A DNA stretch of 64,000 nucleotides from positions 2,634,501-2,698,500 of the forward strand of contig NZ_JAAATZ010000001.1 of assembly GCF_010119235.1 (NCBI RefSeq), given 5' to 3'. The stretch's first letter is position 1, and every line of letters starts with the position of its first letter. Both the position numbers and the translations under genes were made by a program. A model generated the notes under the pieces. The model saw only the letters and a program-made list of their open reading frames with translations. It was not told the origin of the DNA and ran no database searches. This DNA is from Flavobacterium phycosphaerae. GTDB taxonomy: Bacteria; Bacteroidota; Bacteroidia; Flavobacteriales; Flavobacteriaceae. Positions 3,688-31,368 of the stretch are shown one piece after another.

Positions 3688-3703
3688 ACAAGATGTATTC
3701 CAA
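3688..3703 (-). promoter_or_regulatory. Candidate -24/-12 (sigma-54-like) promoter of clpB
   Basis: On the minus strand the site reads TTGGAATACATCTTGT, with GG and GT separated by exactly 10 bases. The same GG-N10-GT arrangement precedes dnaK and clpC. GTCATTTTGTCTG (3714-3726, minus sense) lies just upstream and matches GTCATCTTGTCAG upstream of dnaK. No TAnnTTTG box was noted here. The sigma-54 assignment is inferred; the consensus TTGC is TTGT here. Confidence 0.45.
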
Positions 3704-3784
3704 AACGTTTAATCAGACAAAATGACGTGTTTCGTGCGGTTGTTTGTACTAAATTCAAGTCAAAATGTCCTAAATCACGCCACT

Positions 3785-4171
3785 ATGAACCTATTTAAAA
3801 ATATATTCGGCAGTTCCGATGAACCAACCAACACCTCTAAAGTAGGATGGAGGCCCTTAACCGATATGGGGCAGCTTAACGAAATCATCAACGAGTCTAC
3901 CGATAAACCGGTAGCAATCTTTAAGCACAGTACGCGTTGTGGTGTAAGTCGTATGACGTTGAAGCAGTTTGAGAACGAGTACGATATGCACGATAAAATT
4001 ACGCCTTATTTTTTGGATTTGCTCGAGCACCGTCAATTATCTGATGCTGTGGCCAGTCGTTTCAGCGTAGAGCATGAGTCGCCACAATTGCTGTTAATCC
4101 GAAACGGTGAACCTGTTTATATTGCTTCTCACGGCGATATTTATGCGGACGATTTGAAGCGTTATATTTAA
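3785..4171 (+). CDS. ytxJ: Bacillithiol-system redox protein YtxJ (monothiol bacilliredoxin-like)
   Basis: This is a small cytosolic thioredoxin-fold protein of 128 residues. The key segment is HSTRCGVS, with a single cysteine at residue 52, the arrangement of YtxJ (BrxC), which removes bacillithiol from mixed disulfides on proteins. Its presence implies that the organism uses bacillithiol as its low-molecular-weight thiol. I chose the ATG at 3785 over an in-frame ATG at 3722. The family begins with MNLFKNIFG-like sequence, and the upstream extension overlaps the presumed clpB control region. It is divergent from clpB and appears monocistronic, ending about 100 bases before the next gene. Confidence 0.88.
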   Translation: MNLFKNIFGSSDEPTNTSKVGWRPLTDMGQLNEIINESTDKPVAIFKHSTRCGVSRMTLKQFENEYDMHDKITPYFLDLLEHRQLSDAVASRFSVEHESPQLLLIRNGEPVYIASHGDIYADDLKRYI

Positions 4172-4227
4172 CAGTTTATTAAGAAAATTGTAACATATTT
4201 CTTGTGTATTGGTAGGGTGAGTTTAGT

Positions 4228-4235
4228 TAGTTTTG
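4228..4235 (+). promoter_or_regulatory. Bacteroidota -7 box (TAGTTTTG) for the beta-lactamase-fold gene
   Basis: TAGTTTTG fits TAnnTTTG and lies 35 bases before the start codon at 4271. Possible -33 TTG elements lie at 4202 and 4209, neither ideally spaced. Confidence 0.4.
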
Positions 4236-4270
4236 TCTTACATATAAACCAAAAACTAAAACTAAATTAA

Positions 4271-5287
4271 ATGTCATCACCCCTTGCTTCTCGGAAGTTT
4301 TCTCTTTTCCATGTAGCGCTCAGTTCTATTATTATTTCCTTATTTGTTTCCATTGGAATCTATTGGTGGATCAGCCGAAAAGATTCAGCTACCTTGGCCA
4401 TTAATTCGGCTAAAAAAACTTGTGAATACAACATCAAAAGAATTACCGGATTAAAATTTGTTAAGCCTATCTTGTGGGTAGACGAAAACTGCGAATCCGA
4501 TAATTTAGTCAGTACCAAACTTAAGATTACTGAGATTATTGAAAAGTATAAGCAGACCAGTGGTTTGACTACGGCTTCTATTTATCTTCGTGCTAATGGT
4601 GAATGGACTGTAGTAAATGAGGAGGATAAGTATGAACCGGGCTCCTTGTTTAAAGTTCCGGTATTGATTACCATTTTAAAGATGGAAGAAGAGCATCCGG
4701 GGTTTCTCAACAAATCGATTACCTATGTAAATAAAATAGAGACGGGGAAGAACATTGCCTATACTTCTAAGGTGATACAGTTAGGGCAAACCTATACCGT
4801 AAAGGAATTGTTGACTTACATGATAAAATATTCGGACAATGCCGCTACTATATTGTTAGAAAATAATATGGATAACAAAGTGTTGCAGAAACTGTTTGCG
4901 GATGTTGGAGTAGAAGTGCCTAATTTATATGCGGATAAGTATCATTTTACCGTTAGAGATTACTCGCTTTTCATGCGAATTATATTCAATGCCGGATATT
5001 TAACGATTAAAAACTCTGAATATGCCGCTGAGCTATTGAGTGAGTGTGATTTTAAGGATGGCATTATGAAAGGCATACCGGCCAATACCAAGATTGCTCA
5101 TAAGTTTGGTGAATCGGGCAATCCGATTGAAAAGCAGTTGCATGAATCGGCGGTGATATATTTAGACAATGGTGCAGGGTATCTGCTCACGGTAATGACC
5201 AAAGGAAAAGATTTGAAAAAGCTTTCTGAATTGATAGGCGAGATTTCAAGAACGGTTTATGAAGATGTAAAGAATCAATCAAAATAA
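4271..5287 (+). CDS. Membrane-anchored serine hydrolase of the class A beta-lactamase fold
   Basis: A 338-residue protein with one N-terminal membrane anchor (about residues 12-34) and a periplasmic domain of the beta-lactamase2 type (PF13354). Catalytic motifs are present. SxxK is S125-L-F-K128 in EPGSLFKVP, and SDN is S188-D-N190. The third motif, normally KTG or KSG, is replaced by K278-F-G-E-S-G. Family members act on beta-lactams or on peptidoglycan peptides. The membrane anchor and the altered third motif make a cell-wall or uncharacterised hydrolase more likely than a secreted resistance enzyme. It is a single gene between ytxJ and a strong terminator. Confidence 0.85.
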   Translation: MSSPLASRKFSLFHVALSSIIISLFVSIGIYWWISRKDSATLAINSAKKTCEYNIKRITGLKFVKPILWVDENCESDNLVSTKLKITEIIEKYKQTSGLTTASIYLRANGEWTVVNEEDKYEPGSLFKVPVLITILKMEEEHPGFLNKSITYVNKIETGKNIAYTSKVIQLGQTYTVKELLTYMIKYSDNAATILLENNMDNKVLQKLFADVGVEVPNLYADKYHFTVRDYSLFMRIIFNAGYLTIKNSEYAAELLSECDFKDGIMKGIPANTKIAHKFGESGNPIEKQLHESAVIYLDNGAGYLLTVMTKGKDLKKLSELIGEISRTVYEDVKNQSK

Positions 5288-5290
5288 AAG

Positions 5291-5321
5291 AAAAACCCGA
5301 AGACTATCTTCGGGTTTTTTT
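5291..5321 (+). terminator. Rho-independent terminator
   Basis: Stem AAAAACCCGAAGA/TCTTCGGGTTTTT with loop CTA, followed by a T run, immediately after the stop at 5287. The A-rich other side lets it also serve the converging lipoprotein gene. Confidence 0.9.
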
Positions 5322-5345
5322 ATGGATAAAACAGTTGTTTTGGGA

Positions 5346-6530
5346 TTATCTTCTGAATTTATTTTGAGAAATAATGTCTTTCAGTTTGTTTTTTAAATCA
5401 TTTCCGGCATCATAAATCATCTGCTCATTGCTTGGAAATGGTATTGCTTTTCTATCAAAATTAGGATAGTAAGTATCTTCACAAGCACGTTTGTCGCCTT
5501 TGTAGCTGGCATATATGTTAGAGAATATGAACTCGCTAGCTACCGGAAAGGTTTCGATTAGTTGGCTGTTCTTAAGATTAACATAATCCACTTTAGCCGT
5601 TACTTGGCAGGACTTGATTTGTGAAAATTCATAAATACTGATGCGGATGGTTTTCATGTTGTCGACTTTGATGGGGTTACCCAAACTGTCTTTTACGGTA
5701 TTGCCTTTAGAATCCACAAGGTTTTTCACGCCATCTTTGATTTGCTTTTCTTTTTCGAATTGTTTTTCTTTTTGTTGCTCCGGAGAGATTTGAATGTTGC
5801 GGAAATTCAGGATTAAACCGTAATCGTAGTCAATTCCTTTAACGCGCTTGCTGTGGTAAACGGTCCATTTATCGTTCAAGCCATAAGTGCTGAAATCAAG
5901 CAAATCATTCTCTAAACGAACCGGAATAACCATATTCGTTTCGTTTTTAGTAGATACATTTACATAGTCGGTGCCTTTAGTTTTGGCCTCTTCTATAAGT
6001 TTGTCGGTGTCTTTAAAGCCGGGATTGATGCTTTCTAAATACATCAAATCGTCATAAGCCCGACGGATGGTCATTTTGTCTTTGGTAACCAATAATGCTT
6101 TGGAGTTGTCGTATAAATACTTTGACAGGGCATTTTTGCTGCTTACGATCTGATCGGAATAATCTTCAAAAGCAAACTTTGCTTCACGACCTTCCTTCAA
6201 TAATTGTAACGGTAACAAAGGACGAATCTGTTCCTGACGGTAGTTGAGTTGGATATAGGTATTGTATATTTTCTCCAAATTCCTTGGATTGGTGTCTTTA
6301 AACCAGCTTTCGATATCGCGGGTATCGCGTTCTTTGGCTTTGGCAAAAGCTTCTTCGAGCAGGTAAACATAGTCTTGTTTGCCTTTGGCGTTTTTGTTGC
6401 CTTGCAGCCCTTCTACCGAGTTACGGATGGCGGCATCATAATCGCCGGAAGTTACTAATTCACGGGTTTGCTTAATACCGCAGGCAGAAAGGATAAGGAA
6501 TACTGATAAGAGTGAAGTAATTTTTTTCAT
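5346..6530 (-). CDS. Uncharacterised lipoprotein
   Basis: A 394-residue protein with a lipoprotein signal peptide, MKKITSLLSVFLILSAC, and the lipobox cysteine at residue 17. It is therefore exported and lipidated. The N-terminal part resembles helical repeats (AIRNSVEGLQGNKNAKGKQ...VYLLEEAFAKAKER), so a TPR-like role in protein contacts is possible. The second half has a Lys/Glu-rich helix (EQQKEKQFEKEKQ). I do not recognise a named family. An upstream in-frame start at 6548 is rejected because a -7 box TACATTTG occupies 6546-6553 and because the signal peptide begins at 6530. It lies just downstream of thrC but has its own promoter box upstream of its start. Confidence 0.85.
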   Translation of the reverse strand: MKKITSLLSVFLILSACGIKQTRELVTSGDYDAAIRNSVEGLQGNKNAKGKQDYVYLLEEAFAKAKERDTRDIESWFKDTNPRNLEKIYNTYIQLNYRQEQIRPLLPLQLLKEGREAKFAFEDYSDQIVSSKNALSKYLYDNSKALLVTKDKMTIRRAYDDLMYLESINPGFKDTDKLIEEAKTKGTDYVNVSTKNETNMVIPVRLENDLLDFSTYGLNDKWTVYHSKRVKGIDYDYGLILNFRNIQISPEQQKEKQFEKEKQIKDGVKNLVDSKGNTVKDSLGNPIKVDNMKTIRISIYEFSQIKSCQVTAKVDYVNLKNSQLIETFPVASEFIFSNIYASYKGDKRACEDTYYPNFDRKAIPFPSNEQMIYDAGNDLKNKLKDIISQNKFRR

Positions 6531-6545
6531 GGAGTTGATTTTAAA

Positions 6546-6553
6546 CAAATGTA
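6546..6553 (-). promoter_or_regulatory. -7 box TACATTTG for the lipoprotein gene
   Basis: Exact TAnnTTTG match on the minus strand, 15 bases before the ATG at 6530. It lies in the short gap after thrC and rules out the upstream start. Confidence 0.5.
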
Positions 6554-6560
6554 AAAAAAA

Positions 6561-7847
6561 TCAATCTAAATAGTTCTTCAAATCCTCATAGGTTTTGATT
6601 TTGGTACTCACTTTTTCTTTATGCAACACACTTTCAATTTGTTCCGGTATCGGCAATTTTAAATTCAGTAAGGGTTCAACAATATCAAGGAATTTTATAG
6701 GATGCGCCGTTTCTAAGAATACGCCAACACTGTTGGATTGCTTTTGCATTTCTTTTTTCAGTCCCAAATAACCAACGGCTCCATGAGGTTCGGCTATGTA
6801 TTGCGTGCGTTTGAAAATATCCTGCATAGCGGCTTCTGTTTCGGCATCAGTAAAGCTGTAGGAAGAAAAGTCTTTTTCAAATTGCTTTAAATCATTGTGA
6901 TATAATTCCTGTATGCGGATAAAGTTGCTTGGATTCCCTACATCCATAGCGTTGGAAATAGTGGCTACAGAGGGTTTGGGTTCGTATTGTCCTTTTGCTA
7001 AAAACCTAGGCACGGTATCATTAGCATTGGTAGAAGCTACAAAGTGGGCGATAGGCAGGCCTAATCGTTTCGCCATAATGCCGGCACAAATGTTCCCGAA
7101 ATTACCACTCGGGCACGAAAGAATCAAAGGCTTTTGGTATTTCTTTAATTGTTGGTACGCAAAGAAAATATAAAACATTTGCGGCAACCATCGGGCAATG
7201 TTAATCGAATTGGCCGAAGTGAGGTTCTTGTGTTTCAGACTCTCGTCTAAGAAGGCTCTTTTGACCATATCCTGACAATCATCAAATACGCCGTCTACTT
7301 CTAATGCTTTTATGTTTTGTCCTAACGTAGTTAGTTGACGTTCTTGTATTTCACTAACTTTACCTGAAGGATATAATATTATAACTTCAACGCCTTTTAC
7401 ACCCAAAAATCCGCTGGCTACAGCACCGCCGGTATCGCCTGAAGTGGCTACTAAAACCGTAACTTTCTTATCATCATGACGGTTGAAATAGCCTAAGCAT
7501 CTCGACATGAATCGGGCACCCACATCTTTGAAAGCCATGGTTGGTCCGTGAAATAATTCTAAGGAATAGACGTTGTCTTCTACCGGCACGCAAGGAAAAT
7601 CAAAGCATAGGGTTTCCGCTATGATGCGTTTCAATTCGGCTTCAGGAATTTCATCACCTACAAACTGTTTGATGGCTTCAAAAGCGATTGCTTCGTGTGA
7701 AAGGTTTTCAATGTTATCAAAGAAAGAAGACGGAAGAGGTGTAATGCTTTCCGGGAAATATAACCCTCTGTCAGGTGCTAAGCCCAAGACAACGGCTTCC
7801 TGAAAACTTACTTTGGGAGAGATATGGTTTAAGCTGTAATAGTTCAT
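6561..7847 (-). CDS. thrC: Threonine synthase
   Basis: Converts O-phosphohomoserine to L-threonine with pyridoxal phosphate, the last step of threonine synthesis. The 428-residue protein has the family's N-terminal segment and the PLP-lysine motif TMAFKDVGARF (K107). The glycine-rich phosphate-binding stretch ATSGDTGGAVASG and the later SGNFGNICAG are both present. Length matches the shorter, E. coli-like class of the enzyme. It begins two bases after the thrB stop, so translation is probably coupled, and it is the last gene of the leader-thrA-thrB-thrC operon. No clear hairpin terminator follows. Confidence 0.97.
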   Translation of the reverse strand: MNYYSLNHISPKVSFQEAVVLGLAPDRGLYFPESITPLPSSFFDNIENLSHEAIAFEAIKQFVGDEIPEAELKRIIAETLCFDFPCVPVEDNVYSLELFHGPTMAFKDVGARFMSRCLGYFNRHDDKKVTVLVATSGDTGGAVASGFLGVKGVEVIILYPSGKVSEIQERQLTTLGQNIKALEVDGVFDDCQDMVKRAFLDESLKHKNLTSANSINIARWLPQMFYIFFAYQQLKKYQKPLILSCPSGNFGNICAGIMAKRLGLPIAHFVASTNANDTVPRFLAKGQYEPKPSVATISNAMDVGNPSNFIRIQELYHNDLKQFEKDFSSYSFTDAETEAAMQDIFKRTQYIAEPHGAVGYLGLKKEMQKQSNSVGVFLETAHPIKFLDIVEPLLNLKLPIPEQIESVLHKEKVSTKIKTYEDLKNYLD

Positions 7848-7849
7848 AA

Positions 7850-8770
7850 TTATATTGTTTTTACACCTTGGTCGTTAACTTTTGAAACATGCATGTCAAA
7901 GGGGATTCCGGTTTCGAGATAACTACTGCTCATGGCATAGGCTACTTTTTCGGCTGAAGCTTGTCCTTTGCATAAAGCAAATACAGAAGGTCCGGCACCC
8001 GATATCCCGGCCCCTAAGGCACCACTGTCTAAGGCACTGTTTTTAACCAAATCAAAACTGGGAATCAATTGCTTGCGTAAAGGTTCAATAATCACATCCT
8101 GTAATGATCTTCCAATGAGTTCGTAATCTTTTGTATATAACCCGGATACCAGCCCGCCTAGGTTTCCCCATTGTGTTATAGCTTCTTTTAGGGCTATAGT
8201 GGGAGAAAGCACTGCTCTTGAATCCGATGTTTTTACTTCAATATGCGGATGTAAGACTACAGCGTAGATTTCACTTGGACTGTCAATCCTTATGACGTCT
8301 AAAGGATTATAACCGCGAACTAATGTAAAGCCTCCTAAAAGACAAGGGGCTACATTATCGGCATGTTCAGAACCACTGGCAATAACTTCGCCTTTCATGG
8401 CAAAATCTACCAATTGGTGTTTTGTATAAGGTCGGCCCAGTAATTCGTTAATTCCGTATACCGCCCCGGCTGCACTGGCAGAAGAACTCCCGATACCGCT
8501 GCCGGCTTTTATTTTTTTATGGATTTCAATTTCAAAACCAAAATCAGGGTTCGCTGCATTGACAATAGCCAATCCGGCAACACCCGCTACGTTTTTCTCG
8601 GTTTCCATGGGTAAATCGGCACCGGTTATTTTAGTAATTTTAATTCCTTTTTCTGTCACTTTGCGAATTACCATTTCATCACCAATGGTCTCGAGACATA
8701 GGCCCATGACGTCAAATCCGCAATTGAGATTAGCGATAGTGGCCGGGCAGAATATTTTGATTTCGTGCAT
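7850..8770 (-). CDS. thrB: Homoserine kinase
   Basis: A GHMP-family kinase of 306 residues that phosphorylates L-homoserine to O-phosphohomoserine with ATP. The diagnostic phosphate-binding motif GSGIGSSSASA is at residues 90-100. The N-terminal PATIANLNCGFD and the C-terminal GAGISGAGPSVFAL motif complete the fold. It is the middle gene of the threonine operon, 52 bases after thrA, with a short potential hairpin (CCTTGCTAAGG) in that gap, and two bases before thrC. Confidence 0.97.
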   Translation of the reverse strand: MHEIKIFCPATIANLNCGFDVMGLCLETIGDEMVIRKVTEKGIKITKITGADLPMETEKNVAGVAGLAIVNAANPDFGFEIEIHKKIKAGSGIGSSSASAAGAVYGINELLGRPYTKHQLVDFAMKGEVIASGSEHADNVAPCLLGGFTLVRGYNPLDVIRIDSPSEIYAVVLHPHIEVKTSDSRAVLSPTIALKEAITQWGNLGGLVSGLYTKDYELIGRSLQDVIIEPLRKQLIPSFDLVKNSALDSGALGAGISGAGPSVFALCKGQASAEKVAYAMSSSYLETGIPFDMHVSKVNDQGVKTI

Positions 8771-8822
8771 TTTTATTTTGGTTTTTGCAGCACCGTAACC
8801 TTGCTAAGGCGCCACACTATAG

Positions 8823-11270: not shown

Positions 11271-11354
11271 TGTTTTATTTTTTTATGGGAGATAAAGTCA
11301 TTGTTATTTTGTCTTTCGTCATAGAAAGTACCTGAAGCGGATTATATGTAATGA

Positions 11355-11459
11355 TTATACCCCAAACGGGGTGGTAGTTGTTGATGTCGTAGTAACCGCA
11401 GTGGCAACCAAAGAATTGGTTGGAGTAGTGGCTTTAGTTGTTAAAATTTTACGCATCAT
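11355..11459 (-). CDS. thrL: Threonine-operon leader peptide (attenuation peptide)
   Basis: A 34-residue peptide reading MMRKILTTKATTPTNSLV... and ending in a run rich in Thr before PFGV. I count 13 threonines in 34 residues, with seven of the last eleven residues being Thr. It lies 84 bases upstream of thrA on the same strand, the position and composition of a transcription- or translation-attenuation leader such as E. coli ThrL. Ribosome stalling at scarce threonyl-tRNA would expose or hide downstream structure. A small hairpin (ACCCC/GGGGT, 11359-11372) overlaps the last codons, but I do not see a U-tract terminator, so the mechanism is unresolved. Two adjacent ATG codons (11459, 11456) could start it. 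A longer in-frame start at 11540 lies upstream of the -7 box and is unlikely. Confidence 0.8.
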   Translation of the reverse strand: MMRKILTTKATTPTNSLVATAVTTTSTTTTPFGV

Positions 11460-11465
11460 GGTTTT

Positions 11466-11473
11466 CAAATTTA
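11466..11473 (-). promoter_or_regulatory. -7 box TAAATTTG for the thr leader
   Basis: Exact TAnnTTTG match six bases before the leader ATG at 11459. Transcription would then start at or within a base or two of the start codon, a nearly leaderless transcript. No clear -33 TTG is seen at the expected distance. Confidence 0.45.
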
Positions 11474-11668
11474 TAACTTTTTGAGAATTAAAAAAGAAAT
11501 TAAGTAATTTTTGAGGATATCGCAATTTTATGGAATTCAAAATTTAATTTTAAAGGCATCATTAGTATTAGTCTGTTTTTTTTAATGATTCGGCAATAAA
11601 ATAGTAGCCGAATTTATTGTTTTTTACCAATTGTTTACGGAATTTTGGGCCTTTAATCCCAACCAAAA

Positions 11669-16616: not shown

Positions 16617-19160
16617 TTATTTTGTAGGCTTTTCTGCTTTTTGAATGGTAACGGTCAACTCTTGTGTTGTTTCGTCTAAATCCATAAATATTTCATCGCC
16701 TGATGCTATTTTAGAAGTAATAATTTCTTCGGCTAAAGCATCTTCTACATATTTTTGAATCGCCCTTTTTAAAGGACGCGCTCCAAACTGTTTGTCAAAA
16801 CCTTTCTCCGCTATAAACGCTTTGGCTTTGTCGGAAAGGTTTAGTTTGTATCCCAATTCGGCTACACGAGCGTACAACTTTTTCAATTCGATTTCGATAA
16901 TTAAATCGATGTCGTGTTTCTCCAAAGCGTTGAATACAATCACATCGTCAATTCGGTTTAAGAATTCAGGCGCAAAGGTTTTCTTCAAAGCGTTTTCAAT
17001 GATACTTTTCGAATTGTCATCGGCTTGTGAAATTTTGGCCGCGGTACCAAAACCAACTCCTTGTCCGAAGTCTTTCAACTGACGAGCTCCTACATTGGAA
17101 GTCATTATAATAATGGTATTTTTGAAATCGATTTTTCTTCCTAAACTATCAGTCAGGTAACCATCATCTAAAACCTGCAGCATCATGTTGAATACATCCG
17201 GGTGTGCTTTTTCGATTTCGTCTAATAAAACTACACAGTATGGTTTTCTTCGAACTTTCTCGGTCAATTGTCCGCCTTCTTCATAACCAACGTATCCCGG
17301 AGGTGCACCGATTAAACGAGAGATGGCAAATTTCTCCATATACTCGCTCATGTCAATACGGATTAAAGCATCTTCAGAGTCGAATAATTCTTTGGCTAAA
17401 ACTTTGGCCAATTGTGTTTTACCCACACCGGTTTGTCCTAAGAAAATGAAAGAACCAATTGGGCGATTCGGATCTTTCAATCCGGCACGGTTTCTTTGAA
17501 TGGAACGGGCGATTTTTAATACCGCTTCGTCTTGTCCGATTACTTTCCCTTTAATCAATTCGGGTAAATGAGCCAGTTTATTGCTTTCGGTTTGGGCAAT
17601 ACGATTTACCGGAATTCCGGTCATCATCGATACTACATCGGCAACGTTGTCTTCGGTAACGCGAATTCTGTTGCTTTTAGAATCTTCTTCCCATTGCTCT
17701 TGCGCTATTCCTAAGTCTTTTTCCAAACGTTTTTCATCGTCACGTAACTTGGCCGCTTCTTCGTATTTCTGTTTTTTTACCACCGAATTTTTCAATTCAC
17801 GTACTTCTTCTAATTGACGCTCTAAGTCCAAAATTTGTTTAGGGACATCAATATTGGTAATGTGAACACGAGAACCTGCTTCGTCTAAAGCGTCAATAGC
17901 TTTGTCCGGAAGGAAGCGTTCTGACATGTATCGGTTCGTTAACTTCACACAAGCTTCAATCGCTTCGTCAGTGTAAATTACGTTATGATGATCTTCGTAT
18001 TTGTTTTTGATGTTGTTCAAAATCGTAATGGTTTCTTCTACCGAAGTAGGCTCTACTATTACCTTTTGAAAACGTCTCTCTAAAGCACCGTCTTTCTCAA
18101 TATATTGTCGGTACTCATCCAAAGTGGTAGCACCGATACATTGTATTTCGCCACGCGCTAAAGCCGGTTTAAACATGTTCGAGGCATCTAATGAACCTGT
18201 AGCGCCACCGGCCCCAACAATAGTATGGATTTCGTCAATGAATAAAATAATGTCGTCGTTTTTCTCTAACTCATTCATTACGGCTTTCATTCTTTCTTCA
18301 AATTGCCCACGGTATTTGGTACCGGCAACTAAGGAAGCTAAATCAAGTGTTACGACTCTTTTGTTAAAAAGGATACGCGACACTTTCTTTTGAATGATGC
18401 GTAGTGCTAATCCTTCGGCTATGGCCGATTTACCCACACCCGGTTCACCAATCAGTAACGGATTGTTTTTCTTTCTACGGCTCAAAATTTGAGAAACACG
18501 TTCTATTTCTTTTTCGCGACCTACTACCGGGTCGAGTTTACCTTCTTCTGCTAATTCGGTTAAATCACGGCCAAAGTTATCCAAAACCGGAGTTTTTGAT
18601 TTCTTGTTCGTTTTATTCGCCGGATTATTGAAACTGCCTTCTTTCAAACTGTCATCTTGACCTGAATCGTCATTGTACGATTCGTTTTTAGGCAGGTTGT
18701 CCATGAAATCTTCTTCGTTCGGTGTCATATTTAAGTATTGTTCTTTAACTACGTTATAGTCTATTTTAAGTCTATGCAGCAGTTTGGTTGTTGGATCATT
18801 TTCATTTCTTAGTATACACAAAAGTAAATGAGCCGTACTGATTGAAGTGGCTTGGAATACTTTGGCTTCTAAGAACGTAGTTTTTAAAGCGCGTTCCGCT
18901 TGACGAGTCAAGTGTAAATTTTTCTTTTCGTTGCTTATTTCAACATTCGGGTTGGCAGGGCTTAATACCTCTACTTTTTTACGCAAATGTTCCAAATCAA
19001 TTGACAGGTTATTTAAAATAGCAATCGCTTTACCGTTTCCATCTCTTAAGATACCAAGCATCAGATGTTCCGTTCCAATGAAGTCGTGGCCTAAACGCAG
19101 TGCCTCTTCCTTACTGTAAGTGATTACATCTTTGACTCTTGGTGAAAAGTTATCATCCAT
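16617..19160 (-). CDS. clpC: ATP-dependent Clp protease ATPase subunit ClpC
   Basis: An 847-residue AAA+ unfoldase that feeds proteins to ClpP. The N-terminal double Clp repeat spans 1-140. NBD1 has Walker [10 protein letters not shown] short middle domain includes a UVR-like motif ([18 protein letters not shown]), which separates ClpC from ClpB. NBD2 has Walker A GQTGVGKT, and the ClpP-contact region and C-terminal D2-small domain follow. The start [13 protein letters not shown] is the canonical one. It is divergent from gyrA across 264 bases and preceded by a sigma-54-like site (19208-19223), a feature shared with clpB and dnaK. No mcsA, mcsB or ctsR is adjacent, unlike in Firmicutes. Confidence 0.97.
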
Positions 19161-19207: not shown

Positions 19208-19250
19208 ACAAAAATCATTCCTGCTAAATGTACTGTCAGCTAATTGACAA
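19208..19250 (-). promoter_or_regulatory. Candidate -24/-12 promoter of clpC with upstream dyad
   Basis: On the minus strand CAGGAATGATTTTTGT (19208-19223) has GG and GT separated by 10 bases, as upstream of clpB and dnaK. Immediately upstream lies the dyad TGTCA-N6-TGACA (19234-19249). The sigma factor is inferred, not shown. Confidence 0.4.
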
Positions 19251-23373: not shown

Positions 23374-23388
23374 ATTTATACTTATATT

Positions 23389-24777
23389 TTATAAGTGAAT
23401 TACTTCGCCATAAGCATCAGCCACAGCTTCCATCACTGCTTCACTCATCGTTGGGTGTGGGTGAACCGCTTTCAGAATTTCGTGTCCGGTCGTTTCTAAT
23501 TTACGAGCTACAACTGCTTCTGCAATCATATCCGTAACACCAGCACCAATCATATGACAGCCTAACCATTCACCGTATTTAGCATCAAAAATAACTTTTA
23601 CAAAACCATCCGGAGTTCCGGCTGCTTTGGCTTTTCCTGAAGCGGTGAATGGGAATTTCCCTATTTTTAATTCGTATCCTTTTTCTTTGGCTTGTTTTTC
23701 AGTCATACCTACAGAAGCAATTTCAGGAGTGGCATAAGTACAACCCGGTATGTTTCCGTAATCTAAGGCTTCAACATGTAAACCGGCAATTTTTTCTACA
23801 CAAAGGATTCCTTCCGCTGAAGCCACATGAGCCAAAGCTTGTCCCGGAGTCACATCGCCAATGGCATAATAACCCGGTACATTGGTTTGGTAGAAATCAT
23901 TAACCAAAATTTTATCTTTATCGGTTTTAATTCCGGTTTCTTCTAGGCCAATATTTTCGATATTGGTTTTGATTCCAACAGCCGAAAGTAAAATATCAGC
24001 TTCTAAAACTTCTTCGCCTTTGGCTGTTTTTACAAATGCTTTTACACCGTTTCCTGTAGTGTCAATACGTTCAACAGAAGAATTAGTCATTACAGTAATT
24101 CCTGATTTCTTTAAAGAACGCTCAAATTGTTTTGAAATATCTTCGTCTTCAACCGGCACTACATTAGGCATAAACTCTACTATAGTCACTTCGGTTCCCA
24201 TCGAGTTGTAGAAATGAGCAAACTCAACACCAATAGCACCTGAACCTACAACAATCATTTTCTTTGGTTGCGAAGGTAATGTCATGGCTTGTCGGTATCC
24301 AATAACTTTTACACCATCTTGTGGTAAGTTTGGCAATTCTCTTGAACGGGCTCCGGTAGCGATGATGATATGGTCAGCAGTATACTCTGTTACTTTACCA
24401 TCAGCTGCAGTCACGTCAACTTTTTTACCTGGTTTCACTTTCCCAAAACCGTCAATAACATCGATTTTGTTTTTCTTCATCAAGAATTGAACCCCTTTGC
24501 TCATTCCGTCAGCCACACCACGAGAGCGGGCAATTACGGCATTAAAATCTTTGTCAAATTCTTTTACCGTCAAACCATAATCTGAAGCATGCTTTAGGTA
24601 ATCAAAAACCTGAGCCGATTTTAATAGCGCTTTGGTTGGAATACATCCCCAATTTAAACAAATGCCACCAAGGTTTTCTTTTTCTATTACGGCTACTTTA
24701 AAGCCTAATTGTGACGCACGGATAGCCGTAACATAACCGCCCGGACCACTTCCTAAAACAATAATATCGTATTTCAT
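23389..24777 (-). CDS. lpdA: Dihydrolipoyl dehydrogenase (E3)
   Basis: An FAD flavoprotein that reoxidises dihydrolipoamide in the pyruvate and 2-oxoglutarate dehydrogenase complexes and the glycine cleavage system. The 462-residue protein has the FAD motif GSGPGGYVTAIRA, the redox disulfide C40-x4-C45 in GGICLNWGCIPTK, the NAD motif VVGSGAIGVEF and the C-terminal His-Glu pair in HPHPTMSE. It stands alone, without E1 or E2 genes beside it, common for a shared E3. The next gene upstream (ABC transporter) is on the same strand 57 bases away. Confidence 0.97.
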   Translation of the reverse strand: MKYDIIVLGSGPGGYVTAIRASQLGFKVAVIEKENLGGICLNWGCIPTKALLKSAQVFDYLKHASDYGLTVKEFDKDFNAVIARSRGVADGMSKGVQFLMKKNKIDVIDGFGKVKPGKKVDVTAADGKVTEYTADHIIIATGARSRELPNLPQDGVKVIGYRQAMTLPSQPKKMIVVGSGAIGVEFAHFYNSMGTEVTIVEFMPNVVPVEDEDISKQFERSLKKSGITVMTNSSVERIDTTGNGVKAFVKTAKGEEVLEADILLSAVGIKTNIENIGLEETGIKTDKDKILVNDFYQTNVPGYYAIGDVTPGQALAHVASAEGILCVEKIAGLHVEALDYGNIPGCTYATPEIASVGMTEKQAKEKGYELKIGKFPFTASGKAKAAGTPDGFVKVIFDAKYGEWLGCHMIGAGVTDMIAEAVVARKLETTGHEILKAVHPHPTMSEAVMEAVADAYGEVIHL

Positions 24778-24834
24778 GAGTAAATAATTTCTAAAGATTT
24801 TGTGACTGCGAATTTAAGGATTTATTTTGAAAAT

Positions 24835-26589
24835 TTAGCTTTCAACAGCAAACTGTGAATCGTATAAATTTTTATAATAGCCTTGCGCTTTATTAACCAA
24901 TTCCTGATGGGTTCCTTCTTCAACAATTTGCCCTTTGTCCATCACAATAATTTTATCCGCTTTAATGATGGTAGCCAAACGGTGTGCAATAATGATGGAA
25001 GTACGGTTTTGCGTGATTCTTTCGGTAGCTTTTTGAATTAATTCCTCGCTGTAAGTATCAATGGAAGAAGTGGCTTCATCTAAAATTAAAATACTGGGAT
25101 TACTCACATAAGCCCGTAAAAAAGCAATCAATTGACGCTGTCCCGAAGAAAGCATAACCCCGCGTTCTTTTACGTCATAATCATAACCGCCCGGTAAACT
25201 TTTAATGAATTTATGCACGCCAATTTTCTTGGCCGCTTCTATCACATTTTCGCGGGTAATAGTGGGATTGTTAAGAGTAATATTGTTGTGAATAGTATCA
25301 GCAAAAAGAAATACATCTTGCAATACAATGGCAATCTGTTTGCGAAGGCTTTCCATTTGGAAGTCATTGATGTTTTGCTCATCTATAAAAATGGCTCCTG
25401 AATTGATTTCGTAAAAACGATTCAGCAAATTTATGATAGTTGATTTTCCGGCACCGGTAGCACCAACAATGGCAATAGTTTCTCCTGATTTTACATTCAG
25501 CGAAATCCCTTTTACTACTTCTTCATTATCAATATAGCTGAAACGAACATTTTCAAAGTGAATGTTTCCTTTAAAATGTCCGGCTATTTTGGTTCCGTCA
25601 AGTTGTACATCTTTATCGGTATCTAAAATATCAAACACTCTATTGGCTGAAATCATGCCCATTTGCATTTCATTGAACTTATCCGCAATCTGACGCAAGG
25701 GGTTGAACAACATGGCAATAAACATGGTGTACGAAAACAAATCTCCGAAAGTGGTGAACTTATCGCCGTCTAAAATATGAAATCCGCCATACAAGACCAC
25801 CGCAGCAAGTGTTAATGACGATATAATTTCGGCAATGGGAAAAAAGATAGAGTTGTAAAAAATGGTTTTTATCCAAGCCTTATTGTGTTTGCCGTTGATT
25901 TCTTTGAACTTTTCATATTCAATTTCTTCGCGATTGAAAAGCTGTACGATTTTCATTCCGGTTACTCTTTCCTGCACGAATGTATTCATATTGGCTACTT
26001 GGGTTCGTACTTCTTCAAAAGCAATCTGCATTTTTCGCTGAAAGATTCTTGTGATGTAAACCAAAATCGGCATGGCGATAATAACGATCCAAGTTAATCT
26101 CCAATTCATGAAAAACATAAAAAGCAATACGATAACCATTTTCATTAAATCACTAAAAATCATAAAAAGACCTTGGCTGAAAATACGGGCAATCTGTTCG
26201 ATATCAGAAACAGAGCGTGTCACTAATTGTCCCACCGGCGCATTGTCATAATACTTCATGCGGAAACTCAGCATGTGTTTGAATAACTTTGTTCGGATGT
26301 CTTTAATAATGTCTTGTCCCAGCCAGTTGGCCCAATACACAAAATAGAACTGTGAAAGGGTTTCCATCAACAATACAATTCCCATCATGGCTATATAGAA
26401 TAACAAACCGTGCTCGTCTTTCGGCTTGATATAGGAATCAACCGTGTGCTTCAATAAATAGGGGCGAAGGGCTGCAAAAACGGATAACGACACCGCAAAG
26501 AAAATAACACTGTAATACCTTTTTTTATAAGGCTTGGTGTATTTTAGAATACGTTTGAATAAATTAGTGTCGAATGCTTTTGCCTGCAT
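24835..26589 (-). CDS. ABC exporter, fused membrane and ATPase domains (MsbA-like)
   Basis: A 584-residue half-transporter expected to work as a homodimer in the inner membrane. Residues 1-320 form a type I exporter membrane domain with six helices. Residues 340-584 form the ATPase with Walker A GATGAGKST, Q-loop, signature LSSGQRQ, Walker B ILILDEATSS and the H-loop histidine in AHRLAT. The substrate is not predictable: MsbA-type lipid flipping and drug export look alike at this level. It begins two bases after truA, so the two form an operon. Confidence 0.93.
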   Translation of the reverse strand: MQAKAFDTNLFKRILKYTKPYKKRYYSVIFFAVSLSVFAALRPYLLKHTVDSYIKPKDEHGLLFYIAMMGIVLLMETLSQFYFVYWANWLGQDIIKDIRTKLFKHMLSFRMKYYDNAPVGQLVTRSVSDIEQIARIFSQGLFMIFSDLMKMVIVLLFMFFMNWRLTWIVIIAMPILVYITRIFQRKMQIAFEEVRTQVANMNTFVQERVTGMKIVQLFNREEIEYEKFKEINGKHNKAWIKTIFYNSIFFPIAEIISSLTLAAVVLYGGFHILDGDKFTTFGDLFSYTMFIAMLFNPLRQIADKFNEMQMGMISANRVFDILDTDKDVQLDGTKIAGHFKGNIHFENVRFSYIDNEEVVKGISLNVKSGETIAIVGATGAGKSTIINLLNRFYEINSGAIFIDEQNINDFQMESLRKQIAIVLQDVFLFADTIHNNITLNNPTITRENVIEAAKKIGVHKFIKSLPGGYDYDVKERGVMLSSGQRQLIAFLRAYVSNPSILILDEATSSIDTYSEELIQKATERITQNRTSIIIAHRLATIIKADKIIVMDKGQIVEEGTHQELVNKAQGYYKNLYDSQFAVES

Positions 26590-26591
26590 GG

Positions 26592-27329
26592 TTATGGTAG
26601 GTATTCGTATTCAATTTTGGTTAAATATAATCCGTGGGCGGGAACTGAAAACCCGGCTTTGCTGCGGTTTTTACTTTCAATTATTTTTTCGAAGTCGGCT
26701 AGACTAACTTTACCTAATCCAATATTAATCATCGTACCAACAATAGCCCGAACCATATTGCGCAGGAAACGGTCAGCCGAAATGGTAAATAGTAGTTTAG
26801 TACCGTTTTGTTGCCAATGGGCTTCAAAAATTACACAGTTAAAGGTTCGTACATCCGAATTGGTTTTTGAAAAGCATTCAAAATCAGTGTGCTTAAACAA
26901 CAACCCACAAGCTTCATTCATTTTGTCTAAATCCAGTTTGTTTTGGTACTGCCAACTGCCTTGGGACTCAAAAGCATCTTTGAAAGTATGTATGTGATAT
27001 TCATAAGTTCGTTTGGTAGCATCAAAGCGGGCATGGGCCTCATCGGCTACTTTTATGATGTCAAAAATGACAATGTCTTTCGGTAAAAAAGAATTAAGTT
27101 TATGAACTAGTTCTGCCGAATCAATTGGAGTATCGAAATCAAAATGCGCATACATTTGACGGGCATGAACACCGGTATCTGTTCTTCCGGCGCCCACAAT
27201 ATCAATTTCGGTTTTTAGTAAAACGGATAAAGCTTTGTTTAGTGTTTCCTGTACAGAACAAGCATCGGGCTGGTATTGCCAACCGTGGTAGTTTGTTCCG
27301 TTATAAGCTAATTCGATAAAATATCTCAA
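26592..27329 (-). CDS. truA: tRNA pseudouridine(38-40) synthase TruA
   Basis: Converts uridines 38-40 of the tRNA anticodon arm to pseudouridine. The 245-residue protein carries the catalytic aspartate D51 in GAGRTDTGVHA, the N-terminal YNGTNYHGWQ motif and the C-terminal FLRNMVRAIVGT segment. Length is typical. It heads a two-gene operon with the ABC exporter, and a -7 box lies 25 bases before its ATG. Confidence 0.96.
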   Translation of the reverse strand: MRYFIELAYNGTNYHGWQYQPDACSVQETLNKALSVLLKTEIDIVGAGRTDTGVHARQMYAHFDFDTPIDSAELVHKLNSFLPKDIVIFDIIKVADEAHARFDATKRTYEYHIHTFKDAFESQGSWQYQNKLDLDKMNEACGLLFKHTDFECFSKTNSDVRTFNCVIFEAHWQQNGTKLLFTISADRFLRNMVRAIVGTMINIGLGKVSLADFEKIIESKNRSKAGFSVPAHGLYLTKIEYEYLP

Positions 27330-27354
27330 GATGTTTATGCCAAATTTTAAGTGA

Positions 27355-27362
27355 CAAAGTTA
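27355..27362 (-). promoter_or_regulatory. -7 box TAACTTTG for truA
   Basis: Exact TAnnTTTG match on the minus strand, 25 bases before the truA start at 27329. Confidence 0.45.
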
Positions 27363-27408
27363 CAAAGTTTTTATGTTGGAGAAAGGTTAAAGTTTAGCTA
27401 GTTTTTGG

Positions 27409-28071
27409 TTACTTTTTCTTGGTCATTACTTTAAAAACAATTGGAAACACCATCATCCAAAGCATCGAAAGATTTTTCAATTCCGGTTGTGGAATAAGCA
27501 GGTACGTAATCATAATTAAAACCGCTGAAGCTGAAAAGCCAATGACCGCAATTTTTCGCTTTTGCAGTTCGGCCTTGTGTTCGCTTATATCAGTGTTTAA
27601 GCGTATGGAAGGCCTTTTTATTACGATGTAATGGTATAATACAAATTGGGCAATGACACAAAACAGAATCATAAAAAGATACATGAAAAAAGGAATCATT
27701 TGTCCCTTGGCACGAGTAATGAGTGTGGCGCTAAAAGGAAATAATCCGATAAAAAATAATAACAACATATTTCTAATCACTAAACCTTTGTCGTAATCTT
27801 TTAATAAACTGAACATTTTTAAATGCTGGTACCAAATAGCGCCAATGAAAATGAAGCTCACTATATAGGCCAAAAGCGTTGGTATTAGATGTAGCAAAGC
27901 TTTGGCTAATGTTTCGGTGGTTAACTCTTCGGTTTCCGGGATTTTTATTTCTATAGCCATCAAAGTGATTACTATGGCAAACACGGCATCACTAAACAAT
28001 ATCATACGTTCTAATTGAAATTCTTTCTTGATTTCGTCACGAGTAATCTCTTCGTTATCATTTGGTTTCAT
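27409..28071 (-). CDS. TMEM175/DUF1211-family potassium channel-like protein (second copy)
   Basis: A 220-residue multipass membrane protein of the same family as the one at 13864-14445. The pore helix reads ILFSDAVFAIVITLMAIEIKIPE, again with the FSD motif. It has an additional charged N-terminus (KPNDNEEITRDEIKKEFQLER) and about six helices. Bacterial TMEM175 proteins conduct K+. The two copies differ clearly in sequence outside the first helix, so this is an old duplication or separate acquisition. Its own -7 box lies upstream and no partner gene is linked. Confidence 0.88.
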   Translation of the reverse strand: MKPNDNEEITRDEIKKEFQLERMILFSDAVFAIVITLMAIEIKIPETEELTTETLAKALLHLIPTLLAYIVSFIFIGAIWYQHLKMFSLLKDYDKGLVIRNMLLLFFIGLFPFSATLITRAKGQMIPFFMYLFMILFCVIAQFVLYHYIVIKRPSIRLNTDISEHKAELQKRKIAVIGFSASAVLIMITYLLIPQPELKNLSMLWMMVFPIVFKVMTKKK

Positions 28072-28096
28072 GTTGAGTTTTTTTTGGTTAGTAACT

Positions 28097-28104
28097 CAAA
28101 TATA
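28097..28104 (-). promoter_or_regulatory. -7 box TATATTTG for the TMEM175-like gene
   Basis: Exact TAnnTTTG match on the minus strand, 26 bases before the start at 28071. Confidence 0.45.
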
Positions 28105-28194
28105 AAAACTTTTTCGTTAAATAATCCGTACTCAAAATGAAGTTGATTTACTTTGTACCTTAGCCACTCGAAAATACAACCACTTAGCCATTTT

Positions 28195-28689
28195 ATGAAA
28201 AAAATCCTCCTCCTTTCGGATACTCATAGTCATATAGATGATGCCATCTTAAAGTATGTAAATCAAGCTGATGAAGTGTGGCATGCCGGAGACATTGGCG
28301 ATTTAAAAGTTACCGATACGCTAAAAGCCCTAAAGCCTTTGCGAGCGGTTTATGGCAATATTGATGATGACAAGGCGCGAATGGAATTTCCGTTAAACAA
28401 TAGATTCCTCTGCGAAGGTGTTGATGTTTTGATAACTCACATTGGCGGTTATCCCGGAAAGTACAATCAAGTAATTCGGGCTGAGATTCAAAAGAATCCA
28501 CCCAAGCTTTTCATTTGCGGGCATTCACACATCTTAAAAGTACAGTTTGATAAACAATTGGGGTTATTGCACATGAATCCGGGCGCTTGTGGTATTTATG
28601 GATTTCACCAAGTTCGTACCATGTTGCGATTTGAAATTGATGGCGATAAGATTCAAAATTTGGAAATTATTGAAATAGGCAAGAAGTAG
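28195..28689 (+). CDS. YfcE/MJ0936-type metallophosphoesterase
   Basis: A 164-residue phosphodiesterase of the calcineurin-like fold. Metal-ligand motifs appear in order: SDTHSH (D8, H10), GDIGD, YGNID, the THIGGYPG histidine and CGHSH near the end. Members hydrolyse phosphodiesters such as model substrates, 2',3'-cAMP or lipid-linked phosphates; the native substrate is unknown. The ATG at 28195 is chosen because MKKILLLSDTHSH is the family start. An in-frame ATG at 28153 would add 14 unrelated residues. Single gene, divergent from the TMEM175-like gene. Confidence 0.92.
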   Translation: MKKILLLSDTHSHIDDAILKYVNQADEVWHAGDIGDLKVTDTLKALKPLRAVYGNIDDDKARMEFPLNNRFLCEGVDVLITHIGGYPGKYNQVIRAEIQKNPPKLFICGHSHILKVQFDKQLGLLHMNPGACGIYGFHQVRTMLRFEIDGDKIQNLEIIEIGKK

Positions 28690-28880
28690 TTTTTAGCCAC
28701 AGATTGTAACGGATTAAACAGGTTTTAACAGATTTGTTTTTGATGTTAATCTGTCTAAATCAGTCAAATTTGTGTTGTCTGTGTGCTATTATATAGTTTA
28801 TTAGCTTGTCCTCTAAGAACATCTTTGAAGAATTTGCGGTTAAAAATAAATAGAAACTGAGCCGAGTTCGGATTAAATAA

Positions 28881-28910
28881 AAAACCCGAACCATAAGATT
28901 CGGGCTTTTT
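28881..28910. terminator. Bidirectional terminator
   Basis: AAAACCCGAA/TTCGGGCTTTTT hairpin between the converging phosphoesterase and DUF4293 genes. The 190 bases before it hold a decayed AT-rich repeat (AGCCACAGATT...GGATTAAACAGG) and no gene. Confidence 0.85.
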
Positions 28911-28938
28911 GCAGCACTAAAAAACTAAGTTTATAGGT

Positions 28939-29349
28939 TTATCGCAATCGATCCACAGATTTTACGAGATCTTCATCCTTTTTGATGGCTTTGTTGGCCA
29001 AAACCAAAAATACGATAGAAAAAATAGGTAAGAACATCCCAATACCCTTCTCAGAAACGGTAACCGTTCCTCCGGATAGATTTAGTGTTCGATACACAAA
29101 TAATCCTAATAAAATTAAATTCAATATGATATTCAATCTGCCCATGACAAATTGTTGTTGTCTTTTTGCATGTGATAAAATGCTCAATAATGATAAGGTA
29201 GCACTCAACCCGAATAAGGTTACATAAGCAATATCCATCATGAAATAAAAGGACTTACCGGCAGCGTCTTTCCACAAAGGAAAAACAAAAGGCAATACCC
29301 CTGAAAGTATCAGGCAAACTATCAAATAATACGTTTGTATTCTAAACAT
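28939..29349 (-). CDS. DUF4293 family membrane protein
   Basis: A 136-residue inner-membrane protein with four helices (about 5-25, 40-60, 72-92, 104-122) and a charged C-terminus. The start MFRIQTYYLIVCLI with a conserved Q-T-x-Y pattern marks DUF4293, a family confined to Bacteroidota and of unknown function. It is commonly next to rho in this group, which is also the case here (divergent, 188 bases). Confidence 0.88.
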   Translation of the reverse strand: MFRIQTYYLIVCLILSGVLPFVFPLWKDAAGKSFYFMMDIAYVTLFGLSATLSLLSILSHAKRQQQFVMGRLNIILNLILLGLFVYRTLNLSGGTVTVSEKGIGMFLPIFSIVFLVLANKAIKKDEDLVKSVDRLR

Positions 29350-29371
29350 GAATTTTTAAAAAAATGTTGGA

Positions 29372-29379
29372 CAAAAATA
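29372..29379 (-). promoter_or_regulatory. -7 box TATTTTTG for the DUF4293 gene
   Basis: Exact TAnnTTTG match on the minus strand, 23 bases before the ATG at 29349. Confidence 0.45.
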
Positions 29380-29537
29380 TAGTTTCTTTTTAAAAAATAC
29401 TATTGCATGGTAAAATATTATTTGTATTATTGCATAACCAATCCGTAAGTACTTCATCCTTCGGACAATTCTTTACAATAATTTCTACCCACATTTGTAC
29501 TATTTTCCATATTCGAATTTAAATCAAAACAATATTC

Positions 29538-31250
29538 ATGTTTGATATTTCTGCCTTAAAAGAAATGAAGCTTGCTGAGCTTCAAGAAATTGCCAAGTTA
29601 GCAAAGACCATAAAAGTTACCGGTGCCAAAAAAGACACGCTGATTGCGCAAATTTTGGAACATCAAGATAAAGCTGTTGCCGTCAAGGAAGCACAACCCA
29701 CTGAAAAAGCTATGGATAATAAATCCAAACGTGCTCGTATTGTTCCTGAAACCAAAAAAGCTCCTGAAACGAATCAAAGCGATTTGTTTGCCGACGAAGT
29801 TCAAGAACCTGTAAAAGTGGAAGAAAAGCCGGCTTTTCAAAATAAAAATCAAAAATTTAAGAAACCACTTTTCGATAAAAAGAAAAATAACAATACTGAA
29901 GTTGTTGCCCAACAACCAACTGAAAGTGACATAGCTTCAGCAGATACACCAGTCACTACTGAAGAAACAGAAACCCTTCCGAATCAAAATCCTGACGGAA
30001 ATCGCGAACCGAAACATAAAAACCAAAATCCCAACCAAAATAATAACGGAAACGGGAACAATGGCAACAACGGTAACAACAACCCCAATTTTAAAGGAAA
30101 AAAACAAAACAATTTCCGCGACTCTGATTATGAGTTTGATGGTATTATAGAAAGCGAAGGTGTTCTCGAAATGATGCCTGACGGGTATGGTTTCCTGCGC
30201 TCTTCGGATTACAACTATTTAGCTTCTCCGGATGATATTTATTTATCGACATCACAAATCAGATTGTTTGGTTTGAAAACCGGTGATACTGTAAAAGGAG
30301 TAGTGCGTCCTCCAAAAGAAGGAGAGAAGTTCTTCCCGCTGGTAAGAGTTTTAAAAATTAACGGACACGATCCGCAAGTGGTAAGAGACAGAGTTTCATT
30401 TGAGCATTTAACACCAATTTTTCCAAAAGAAAAATTCAACATAGCCGATAAACAAGCCAGTGTATCTACTCGAGTGATTGATTTGTTTTCCCCAATAGGA
30501 AAAGGCCAACGTGGTATGATTGTGGCTCAACCCAAAACGGGTAAAACCATGTTATTGAAAGACATCGCCAATGCCATAGCAGCTAATCATCCTGAAGTGT
30601 ATTTAATTGTATTGCTGATTGATGAAAGACCTGAAGAGGTTACTGATATGCAACGCAGCGTTCGTGGTGAAGTAATTGCTTCAACCTTTGACAGAGAGCC
30701 CATGGAGCACGTGAAAATTGCCAATATTGTTTTAGAGAAATCGAAACGTTTGGTAGAATGTGGTCACGATGTGGTGATTTTGTTAGACTCCATTACGCGT
30801 TTGGCCAGAGCTTACAACACCGTACAACCGGCCTCAGGTAAAGTATTATCGGGTGGGGTGGATGCGAATGCTTTACAAAAACCTAAACGTTTCTTCGGGG
30901 CAGCTCGTAACGTAGAAAATGGTGGTTCTTTGAGTATCATTGCTACTGCCTTAACCGAAACCGGTTCTAAAATGGATGAAGTAATTTTCGAAGAATTCAA
31001 AGGTACCGGTAACATGGAGTTACAATTAGATAGAAAAATTGCTAACCGCAGAATCTTCCCAGCTATCGATTTGACCTCGTCAAGTACGCGTCGTGATGAT
31101 TTATTATTAGACGAAAAAACACTGCAAAGAATGTGGATTCTTCGCAAGTTCTTGGCCGATATGAATCCGGTGGAAGCGATGGATACTATCAATGACAAGA
31201 TTAAGAAAACCCGAAATAACGATGAGTTCCTCATTTCGATGAACGACTAA
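29538..31250 (+). CDS. rho: Transcription termination factor Rho
   Basis: A hexameric RNA helicase that ends transcription at untranslated, C-rich RNA. The 570-residue protein is about 150 longer than E. coli Rho. Residues 1-45 form the Rho_N helical domain. Residues 46-195 are a disordered insert rich in Gln, Asn, Lys and Pro that ends in an Asn/Gly run. The CSD RNA-binding domain ([16 protein letters not shown]) and the RecA-like ATPase with Walker [10 protein letters not shown] and Walker [16 protein letters not shown] follow. Such inserts occur in Rho from Bacteroidota and actinobacteria and bind RNA. The gene is monocistronic with a strong terminator. Confidence 0.98.
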
Positions 31251-31254
31251 ATAC

Positions 31255-31286
31255 AAAATCCCAATCTAAACGGTTGGGATTTTTTA
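31255..31286 (+). terminator. rho terminator
   Basis: AAAATCCCAA-TCTAAACGG-TTGGGATTTTTTA, directly after the rho stop. Confidence 0.9.
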
Positions 31287-31303
31287 TTAACTAAAATGTC
31301 ATC

Positions 31304-31368
31304 TTGTCAGCCTGTTTTTGTTTAAAACTGACAATTTAATACTAATTATTACTTGGCATAATAGTTGT
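31304..31368 (+). promoter_or_regulatory. Candidate -24/-12 promoter of dnaK with upstream dyad
   Basis: TTGGCATAATAGTTGT (31353-31368) matches the sigma-54 pattern TGGCA-N-TTG(C), with GG and GT exactly 10 bases apart. A dyad TTGTCAG-N17-CTGACAA (31304-31334) lies upstream and GTCATCTTGTCAG matches the clpB upstream element. The distance to the ATG leaves a leader of roughly 70 bases. Confidence 0.5.

Follow-up and report, generated by a model that had tools for sequence, protein, structure and literature searches.

We analyzed a 64,000-nucleotide stretch of the Flavobacterium phycosphaerae genome (contig NZ_JAAATZ010000001.1, positions 2,634,501 to 2,698,500; hereafter the window) in which the chaperone and protease genes dnaK, clpB, and clpC are each preceded by an element resembling the −24/−12 promoters of sigma-54 (RpoN). 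A preliminary description of the window had reported these elements together with TGTC/GACA boxes upstream, and predicted a heat-shock regulon driven by RpoN, or by a different sigma factor, with an activator or repressor at the boxes. The letters and coordinates it gave for the three elements are correct (Table 1), each has 10 bases between GG and GT, which is the −24/−12 spacing, and GTCAT(C/T)TTGTC is common to dnaK (31298–31308) and clpB (3726–3716). As also described, TAnnTTTG, the sigma-A consensus taken from PMC7366714, is absent from the 250–264 nucleotides searched upstream of the three genes and occurs within 250 nucleotides upstream of 19 of the 31 open reading frames (ORFs) of at least 200 amino acids in the window. 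The clpC product scores best with the NCBIfam models for ClpB and ClpA, both under cut-off. Comparison across species makes it likely that the elements are sigma-54 promoters of a proteostasis regulon and that their upstream boxes are bound by a protein, designated activator A, that drives it.

Table 1 Features of the dnaK, clpB, and clpC regions and genes for two sigma-54 activator homologues. Positions are those of the window or of the locus named.
Feature	Position	Strand	Sequence	Remarks
dnaK −24/−12 element	31353..31368	+	TTGGCATAATAGTTGT	letters and coordinates as in the preliminary description
dnaK box	31297..31309		TGTCATCTTGTCA	center 53 bp upstream of −24 G, five turns
dnaK extra half-site (putative role)	31329..31333		TGACA	center 25 bp upstream of −24 G
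dnaK gene	31450..33336	+		NCBIfam DnaK equivalog above cut-off
clpB −24/−12 element	3688..3703	−	TTGGAATACATCTTGT	
clpB box	3716..3726		GTCATTTTGTC	center 21 bp upstream of −24 G
Second clpB box	3759..3769		GACATTTTGAC	center 64 bp upstream of −24 G
clpB gene	964..3576	−		TIGR03346 above cut-off
clpC −24/−12-like element	19208..19223	−	CAGGAATGATTTTTGT	
clpC wide dyad	19233..19250		TTGTCAATTAGCTGACAG	contains TTGTCA-N6-TGACAG; center 21.5 bp upstream of −24 G
clpC gene	16617..19160	−		847-aa Clp ATPase, name from the preliminary description
Activator A	L208 5439-6701	−		420 aa
Protein B	L209 2405-3568	−		387-aa receiver-AAA+ sigma-54 activator homologue, GAFTSA instead of GAFTGA

TGTCA and TGACA are reverse complements of one another, so the boxes described earlier reduce to a single unit. 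As judged from related sequences, the conserved unit is TGWCA-N3-TGWCA, with the 11-bp core GWCA-N3-TGWC (hereafter the box). The long TGTCA…TGACA dyad at dnaK was rejected as the functional unit in favor of the conserved N3 form. The dyad claimed for clpC is present at 19250–19233; in Flavobacterium clpC, its half-sites are separated by six bases (N6).

A single genome leaves the nature of the elements unsettled. The 16-mer TTGGMA-N6-TTGT matches the genome 45 times, compared with 25 times for its reversed control. Loci accompanied 30 of the 45 matches, and 26 of these 30 fall within ORFs of 100 amino acids or more, so the 16-mer was rejected for genome-wide detection. With clpB and clpC left out of the training, a matrix ranks the dnaK element first in the window, that of clpB 29th, and that of clpC 296th.

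The joint occurrence of promoter and box across species lies far beyond chance. Upstream regions of dnaK were taken from 80 named species (the best 80 of 574 relatives); further sets covered clpB, groES, grpE, htpG, lon, and a zinc peptidase described below, and clpC was represented by 18 relatives and its own sequence. Five of 20 lon regions without an identifiable start were left out (two of the 15 kept, L358 and L369, possibly have wrong starts), as was one partial zinc peptidase (L419); another set of 30 dnaK relatives was inspected by eye and stands outside all counts. Controls were 270 ORFs of at least 200 amino acids, some of which are not genes, from dnaK loci (132), activator loci (107), and the window (31), with none from clpC loci. 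The strict joint test combines a strict −24/−12 match with a box of at most one mismatch 11–75 bp before it; upstream regions shorter than 200 nucleotides were left out (one of 80 for dnaK, one of 27 for clpB, one of 30 for grpE). The strict −24/−12 match alone is present in 77/79 dnaK, 22/26 clpB, 23/30 groES, 26/29 grpE, 27/29 htpG, and 15/15 lon regions. The joint motif is found in 77 of 79 dnaK, 25 of 29 grpE, 25 of 29 htpG, 21 of 30 groES, and 20 of 26 clpB regions, compared with one of the 270 controls and shuffled means of at most 0.1 per gene set; in lon (0/15), clpC (0/19), and the zinc peptidase (0/24), the strict test gives no match. The sole control match, possibly a chance one, comes from L377, where it falls within the end of miaB ahead of the activator gene. 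When the −24/−12 pattern is loosened, the counts with a box become 80/80 for dnaK, 27/30 for grpE, 25/29 for htpG, 23/27 for clpB, 21/30 for groES, 12/24 for the zinc peptidase, 1/19 for clpC, and 0/15 for lon, with 2/270 among controls.

Canonical C after the −12 G is present at 19 of 26 seeded grpE sites and at few or none of the others (dnaK 4/60, clpB 0/20, groES 0/18, htpG 0/19). Sigma-54-type promoters of a class designated SM4 were mapped in Flavobacterium psychrophilum (Guerin 2021; PMC9723704), and the members listed there include dnaK, clpB, groESL, and htpG, whose −12 elements here mostly lack this C. A leave-one-gene-out position weight matrix of the −24/−12 element alone was judged weak when set against a control (83 ORFs from the window and from loci picked for TTGGMA-N6-TTGT) that is itself enriched in the motif. 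The 95th percentile of this control was exceeded by 75/79 dnaK, 14/15 lon, 16/29 htpG, 14/30 groES, 11/29 grpE, 10/26 clpB, 2/24 zinc peptidase, and 1/19 clpC regions.

The spacing between box and promoter follows the DNA helix. The centers of 137 exact boxes cluster at 21, 32, 42–43, 52–53, and 62–65 bp from the −24 G, and a 10.5-bp period fits them with R = 0.93. All five distance classes, each a whole number of turns, occur at dnaK alone, in different species. For 15 gene-by-distance clusters, which we delimited ourselves, R is 0.90 and none of 200,000 uniform placements is as good; the five dnaK clusters alone give p = 2e-5. Most exact boxes are centered 21–65 bp upstream of the −24 G, or at about −45 to −89, whereas enhancers of sigma-54 activators are usually found about 80–150 bp upstream. 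Phasing at 21–64 bp from −24 is unusual for sigma-54 and bears on how an activator might reach the polymerase without a long loop. Exact boxes also precede 35 of the 270 control ORFs; 26 of these reflect a chaperone stretch from a neighboring ORF, seven lie upstream of miaB, and two are unexplained.

A search of this genome for PF00158 revealed two strong proteins, activator A and protein B, and five weak matches (23–35 bits) in ClpB, ClpC, and other frames. Only activator A has a DNA-binding domain; the domain search found no DNA-binding family in protein B, which may act from solution on promoters that lack a box. Activator A comprises a Sigma54_activat domain (residues 13–179), a lid (185–259), and a C-terminal Fis-type helix-turn-helix (HTH_8; 378–418), without an N-terminal sensor domain. 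Lid and helix-turn-helix are separated by a linker of about 118 residues, in which residues 281–315 are better conserved than those on either side (mean top-residue frequency of 0.69 versus 0.44 and 0.40). An orthologue of activator A with 54–100% identity over at least residues 5–419 is present in all 49 class members sampled. Among 45 distinct orthologues, the recognition segment LGIS[EQ]RTLYRK is invariant, and the loop that contacts sigma-54 reads G(A/S)(F/Y)TGA in 44 and GSFTSA in one. Together with the conserved, phased boxes, this strong candidate binder supports the earlier proposal of a regulator at the dyads.

The gene for activator A stands in the order miaB-A-(small ORF)-lptE-TPR-secG-groES-groEL, in which miaB is named by domain composition and TPR scores below cut-off. 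In 20 regions from 28 more distant genomes of the class, A is accompanied by adjoining miaB in 20, by lptE in 17, and by secG in 18. The fetched stretch includes groES-groEL in 11 of the 20; upstream of these 11 groES genes, TGGCAY-N6-TG is found in nine and a box with at most one mismatch in six.

Enterobacterial PspF-type activators combine an N-terminal AAA+ domain and a C-terminal Fis-type helix-turn-helix with the lack of a sensor and with autogenous control. Activator A shares this sensor-less architecture but differs in its additional linker, its chaperone targets, and its promoter-proximal sites, and it scores below cut-off with the PspF models (281.7 bits versus 443.55 for TIGR02974; 230 versus 529 for NF008622). 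The enhancer consensus of NorR, GTCA-N3-TGAC, has the same 11-bp half-site frame as the box, in which the second and tenth positions are A or T; the distance to the promoter differs as well, and NorR contains a GAF sensor domain, whereas activator A has none. Three NorR sites lie upstream of norV (PMC2941729).

The seven control ORFs with an exact box at miaB are miaB itself, the first gene before A, and 20 more miaB upstream regions were added to them. In 40 readable genomes (L383 was left out), the exact box is present upstream of miaB in 23 and a box with at most one mismatch in 38; in 35 of the 40, the latter is followed 15–35 bp on, mostly at 24–27 bp, by TAnnTTTG. This pair occurs in 14 of the 270 controls, 11 of which are miaB upstream regions, and 18 class miaB upstream regions examined contain no combination of −24/−12 and box. 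The box overlaps the −33 region of a sigma-A promoter, ahead of the gene whose product is proposed to bind it, although a half-site could double as the −33 TTG element. The simple reading of this arrangement is autogenous repression, which the sequence suggests for the operon of activator A. Autogenous repression is familiar for other such activators.

A genome scan with the exact box led to a PF04298 zinc metallopeptidase (family confirmed), in which TTTGGCTTGCAATTTGA lies downstream of an upstream box, and its relatives provided an out-of-sample test. TGG[CT][TG]-N6-TTG, a pattern written after inspection of the sequences, is found in 19 of 24 relatives versus 8 of 270 controls, and a box is also in range in 12 of the 24. 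By these motifs, the zinc peptidase joins the regulon; it is absent from the published selection of SM4 promoters.

The regulon that we propose comprises dnaK, grpE, groESL, clpB, htpG, lon, the zinc peptidase, and probably clpC. Each promoter carries at least one 11-bp box, usually centered two to six helical turns ahead of its −24 G. Sigma-54 polymerase would wait at −24/−12 as a closed complex. We infer that activator A binds the box on the DNA face occupied by polymerase, from which its AAA+ ring, at the end of the long linker, would reach and remodel the closed complex with no need of the long DNA loop that is usually involved. Activator A would limit its own supply through the box at its own sigma-A promoter. 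Lacking a sensor domain, activator A is likely to be inhibited by a partner protein, for which a chaperone from the regulon may be the simplest candidate. We put forward more tentatively, as a plausible guess, a chaperone response of the class Bacteroidia in which a dedicated sensor-less activator encoded beside groESL uses phased proximal boxes and a linker instead of a loop, represses its own promoter, and is held by a chaperone from among its own targets until misfolded protein titrates that chaperone away.

Several observations weigh against this interpretation, which in this organism is built on sequence comparison. At most promoters the −12 element is TG(A/T), not the canonical GC. Because the species compared are related, their box sites do not count as independent observations and the p-values come out too small. 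Admitting one mismatch lowers R to 0.79 and brings in boxes that are out of phase (45, 55–57, 29–30, and 12–14 bp). The exact 13-bp box occurs seven times in the genome, as does its reversed control; the seven lie upstream of dnaK, grpE, and the zinc peptidase, just inside the lon coding sequence, and in three other ORFs, which puts four within coding sequence. An exact box is in range in only two of 30 groES regions. At lon, the box lies 97–149 bp downstream of the −24 G and is unphased (11 of the 15 regions, those where a box was found). A text pattern for the RpoN box had no match in the fetched loci, which cover part of the genome, and no search for RpoN was made. In F. psychrophilum, a unit of the activator gene and lptE is placed under an SM5 start site (PMC9723704).

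clpC is the weakest of the three cases in the window. The pattern GG[TA]A[CT][GA]-N3/4-TTTG, also written after inspection, precedes clpC in 18 of 19 regions versus one of 270 controls, and the remaining clpC has the canonical form. The half-sites take the N6 form, 3 bp wider, in 13 of the 19; two have the N3 box and four no detectable dyad. It is unlikely, though less so than the other alternatives considered here, that clpC stands outside the regulon, its GG[AT]A…TTTTTG element and N6 dyad being used by another factor or by the divergent gyrA. The wide spacing, the four regions without a dyad, the near absence of joint matches (none strict, one loose), and the absence of clpC from the published SM4 selection would all fit that explanation. 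The GG-N10-G spacing is nevertheless kept in 18 of 19 regions, the dyad center again lies 21.5 bp from the −24 G, and in L227, the sole genome from another order examined, clpC has TGACA-N3-TGTCA and TTGGCATAATAAATGC. On this sequence evidence, clpC is probably a member. A second −24/−12-like match, TTGGCTTTTTTTTTGTCA (19262–19245, minus strand; rank 3 in the window matrix), overlaps the clpC dyad.

We also considered that the promoters use sigma-54 but that the box is the operator of a repressor or of a sigma-54-independent regulator, with the activator working from solution or elsewhere. We regard this as improbable. Box centers near −45 are nearer to polymerase than typical enhancers, the miaB sigma-A promoter has its box where a repressor would act, and a repressor in contact with polymerase would likewise be compatible with helical phasing. 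However, any sigma-54 promoter requires an activator, and only activator A has a DNA-binding domain; the box recurs at the operon of that protein, and boxes 21–64 bp upstream, and downstream at lon, suit an activator site better than a single operator geometry. An HrcA/CIRCE regulon was rejected: HrcA was found in none of 31 genomes in a search whose control was positive in 7 of 14 and which did not extend to the CtsR and HspR families. That the −24/−12 matches are coincidences of an AT-rich genome and that the genes use sigma-A or an extracytoplasmic function (ECF) factor is hardly credible: many 16-mer matches do fall in coding sequence, the −12 C is mostly missing, and clpC ranks 296th, but conservation at fixed spacing against near-zero controls, the canonical −12 C of most grpE sites, the absence of TAnnTTTG upstream of all three genes, and the mapped SM4 start sites (PMC9723704) all contradict it.

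With sigma-54 promoters and boxes bound by activator A as the preferred interpretation, the results can be compared with known systems. Heat-shock control in most studied bacteria depends on sigma-32, HrcA, CtsR, or HspR; CIRCE/HrcA and sigma-32 coordinate dnaK, groESL, and clpB, the same genes as here. A phylum-scale lineage instead appears to use sigma-54 for its chaperones, so that their transcription would strictly require an ATP-driven activator. That RpoN controls these chaperones has been published before: in F. psychrophilum, Guerin mapped SM4 start sites upstream of dnaK, clpB, groESL, grpE-dnaJ, htpG, and lon, the same genes and −24/−12 class as here, and reported induction by blood agar, high osmolarity, plasma, and freshwater (PMC9723704). 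The RpoN part of the earlier prediction is backed by conservation and by that mapping; its heat-shock part stays a prediction. The same report counts one sigma-54 and seven ECF factors as the alternatives in F. psychrophilum and three PF00158 proteins that could define sub-regulons; its SM4 account, unlike ours, names no activator, upstream box, phasing, clpC, or PF04298 peptidase (PMC9723704). A 2025 study in PLoS One found the genes under predicted sigma-54 promoters of Flavobacteriia and Bacteroidia to be enriched in those for GroEL, GroES, GrpE, DnaJ, and DnaK, and called grpE (F. psychrophilum and Bacteroides thetaiotaomicron) and groES (B. thetaiotaomicron) sigma-54-dependent; its account of these computed regulons, in contrast to the present analysis, describes no activator sites or spacing (PMC12316311). 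A search of open-licence PMC literature, with subscription papers outside its scope, revealed no publication naming the activator, the box, or the phasing. These three features and the own-operon site are what the present analysis adds; once activator, box, and own-operon site are named, the published list of promoters becomes a circuit that can be tested.

Further observations concern individual loci. In this genome, lon (L363, C1:2003350-2004150) has TTTGGCACAATCCTTGCC far upstream of the ATG and the box GTCATTTTGAC near the ATG, hence downstream of the promoter. At the groES loci of many Flavobacterium (L174, L176, L178–L182, and others), a hairpin resembling a secG terminator contains the one-mismatch box TGCCAGCCTGTCA; the secG terminator and a groES control site may share DNA. 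Four of the 30 inspected 16-mer matches are intergenic, and two of these, L001 (C1:96360) and L003 (C1:188266), precede ORFs of 239 and 280 amino acids, respectively; neither site has a box. They are possible members of a second sigma-54 regulon, which fits the remark of Guerin that SM4 promoters split into co-expression clusters (PMC9723704). The clpB leader contains a perfect 20-bp palindrome, AGACAAGTCGCGACTTGTCT (3619–3600, minus strand), between promoter and ATG; it was set aside as an operator because it is not seen in the relatives compared. Contigs of metagenome-assembled genomes titled Bifidobacterium breve and Sphingobacterium thalpophilum (L074, L084) hold flavobacterial dnaK loci, and their titles are probably wrong.

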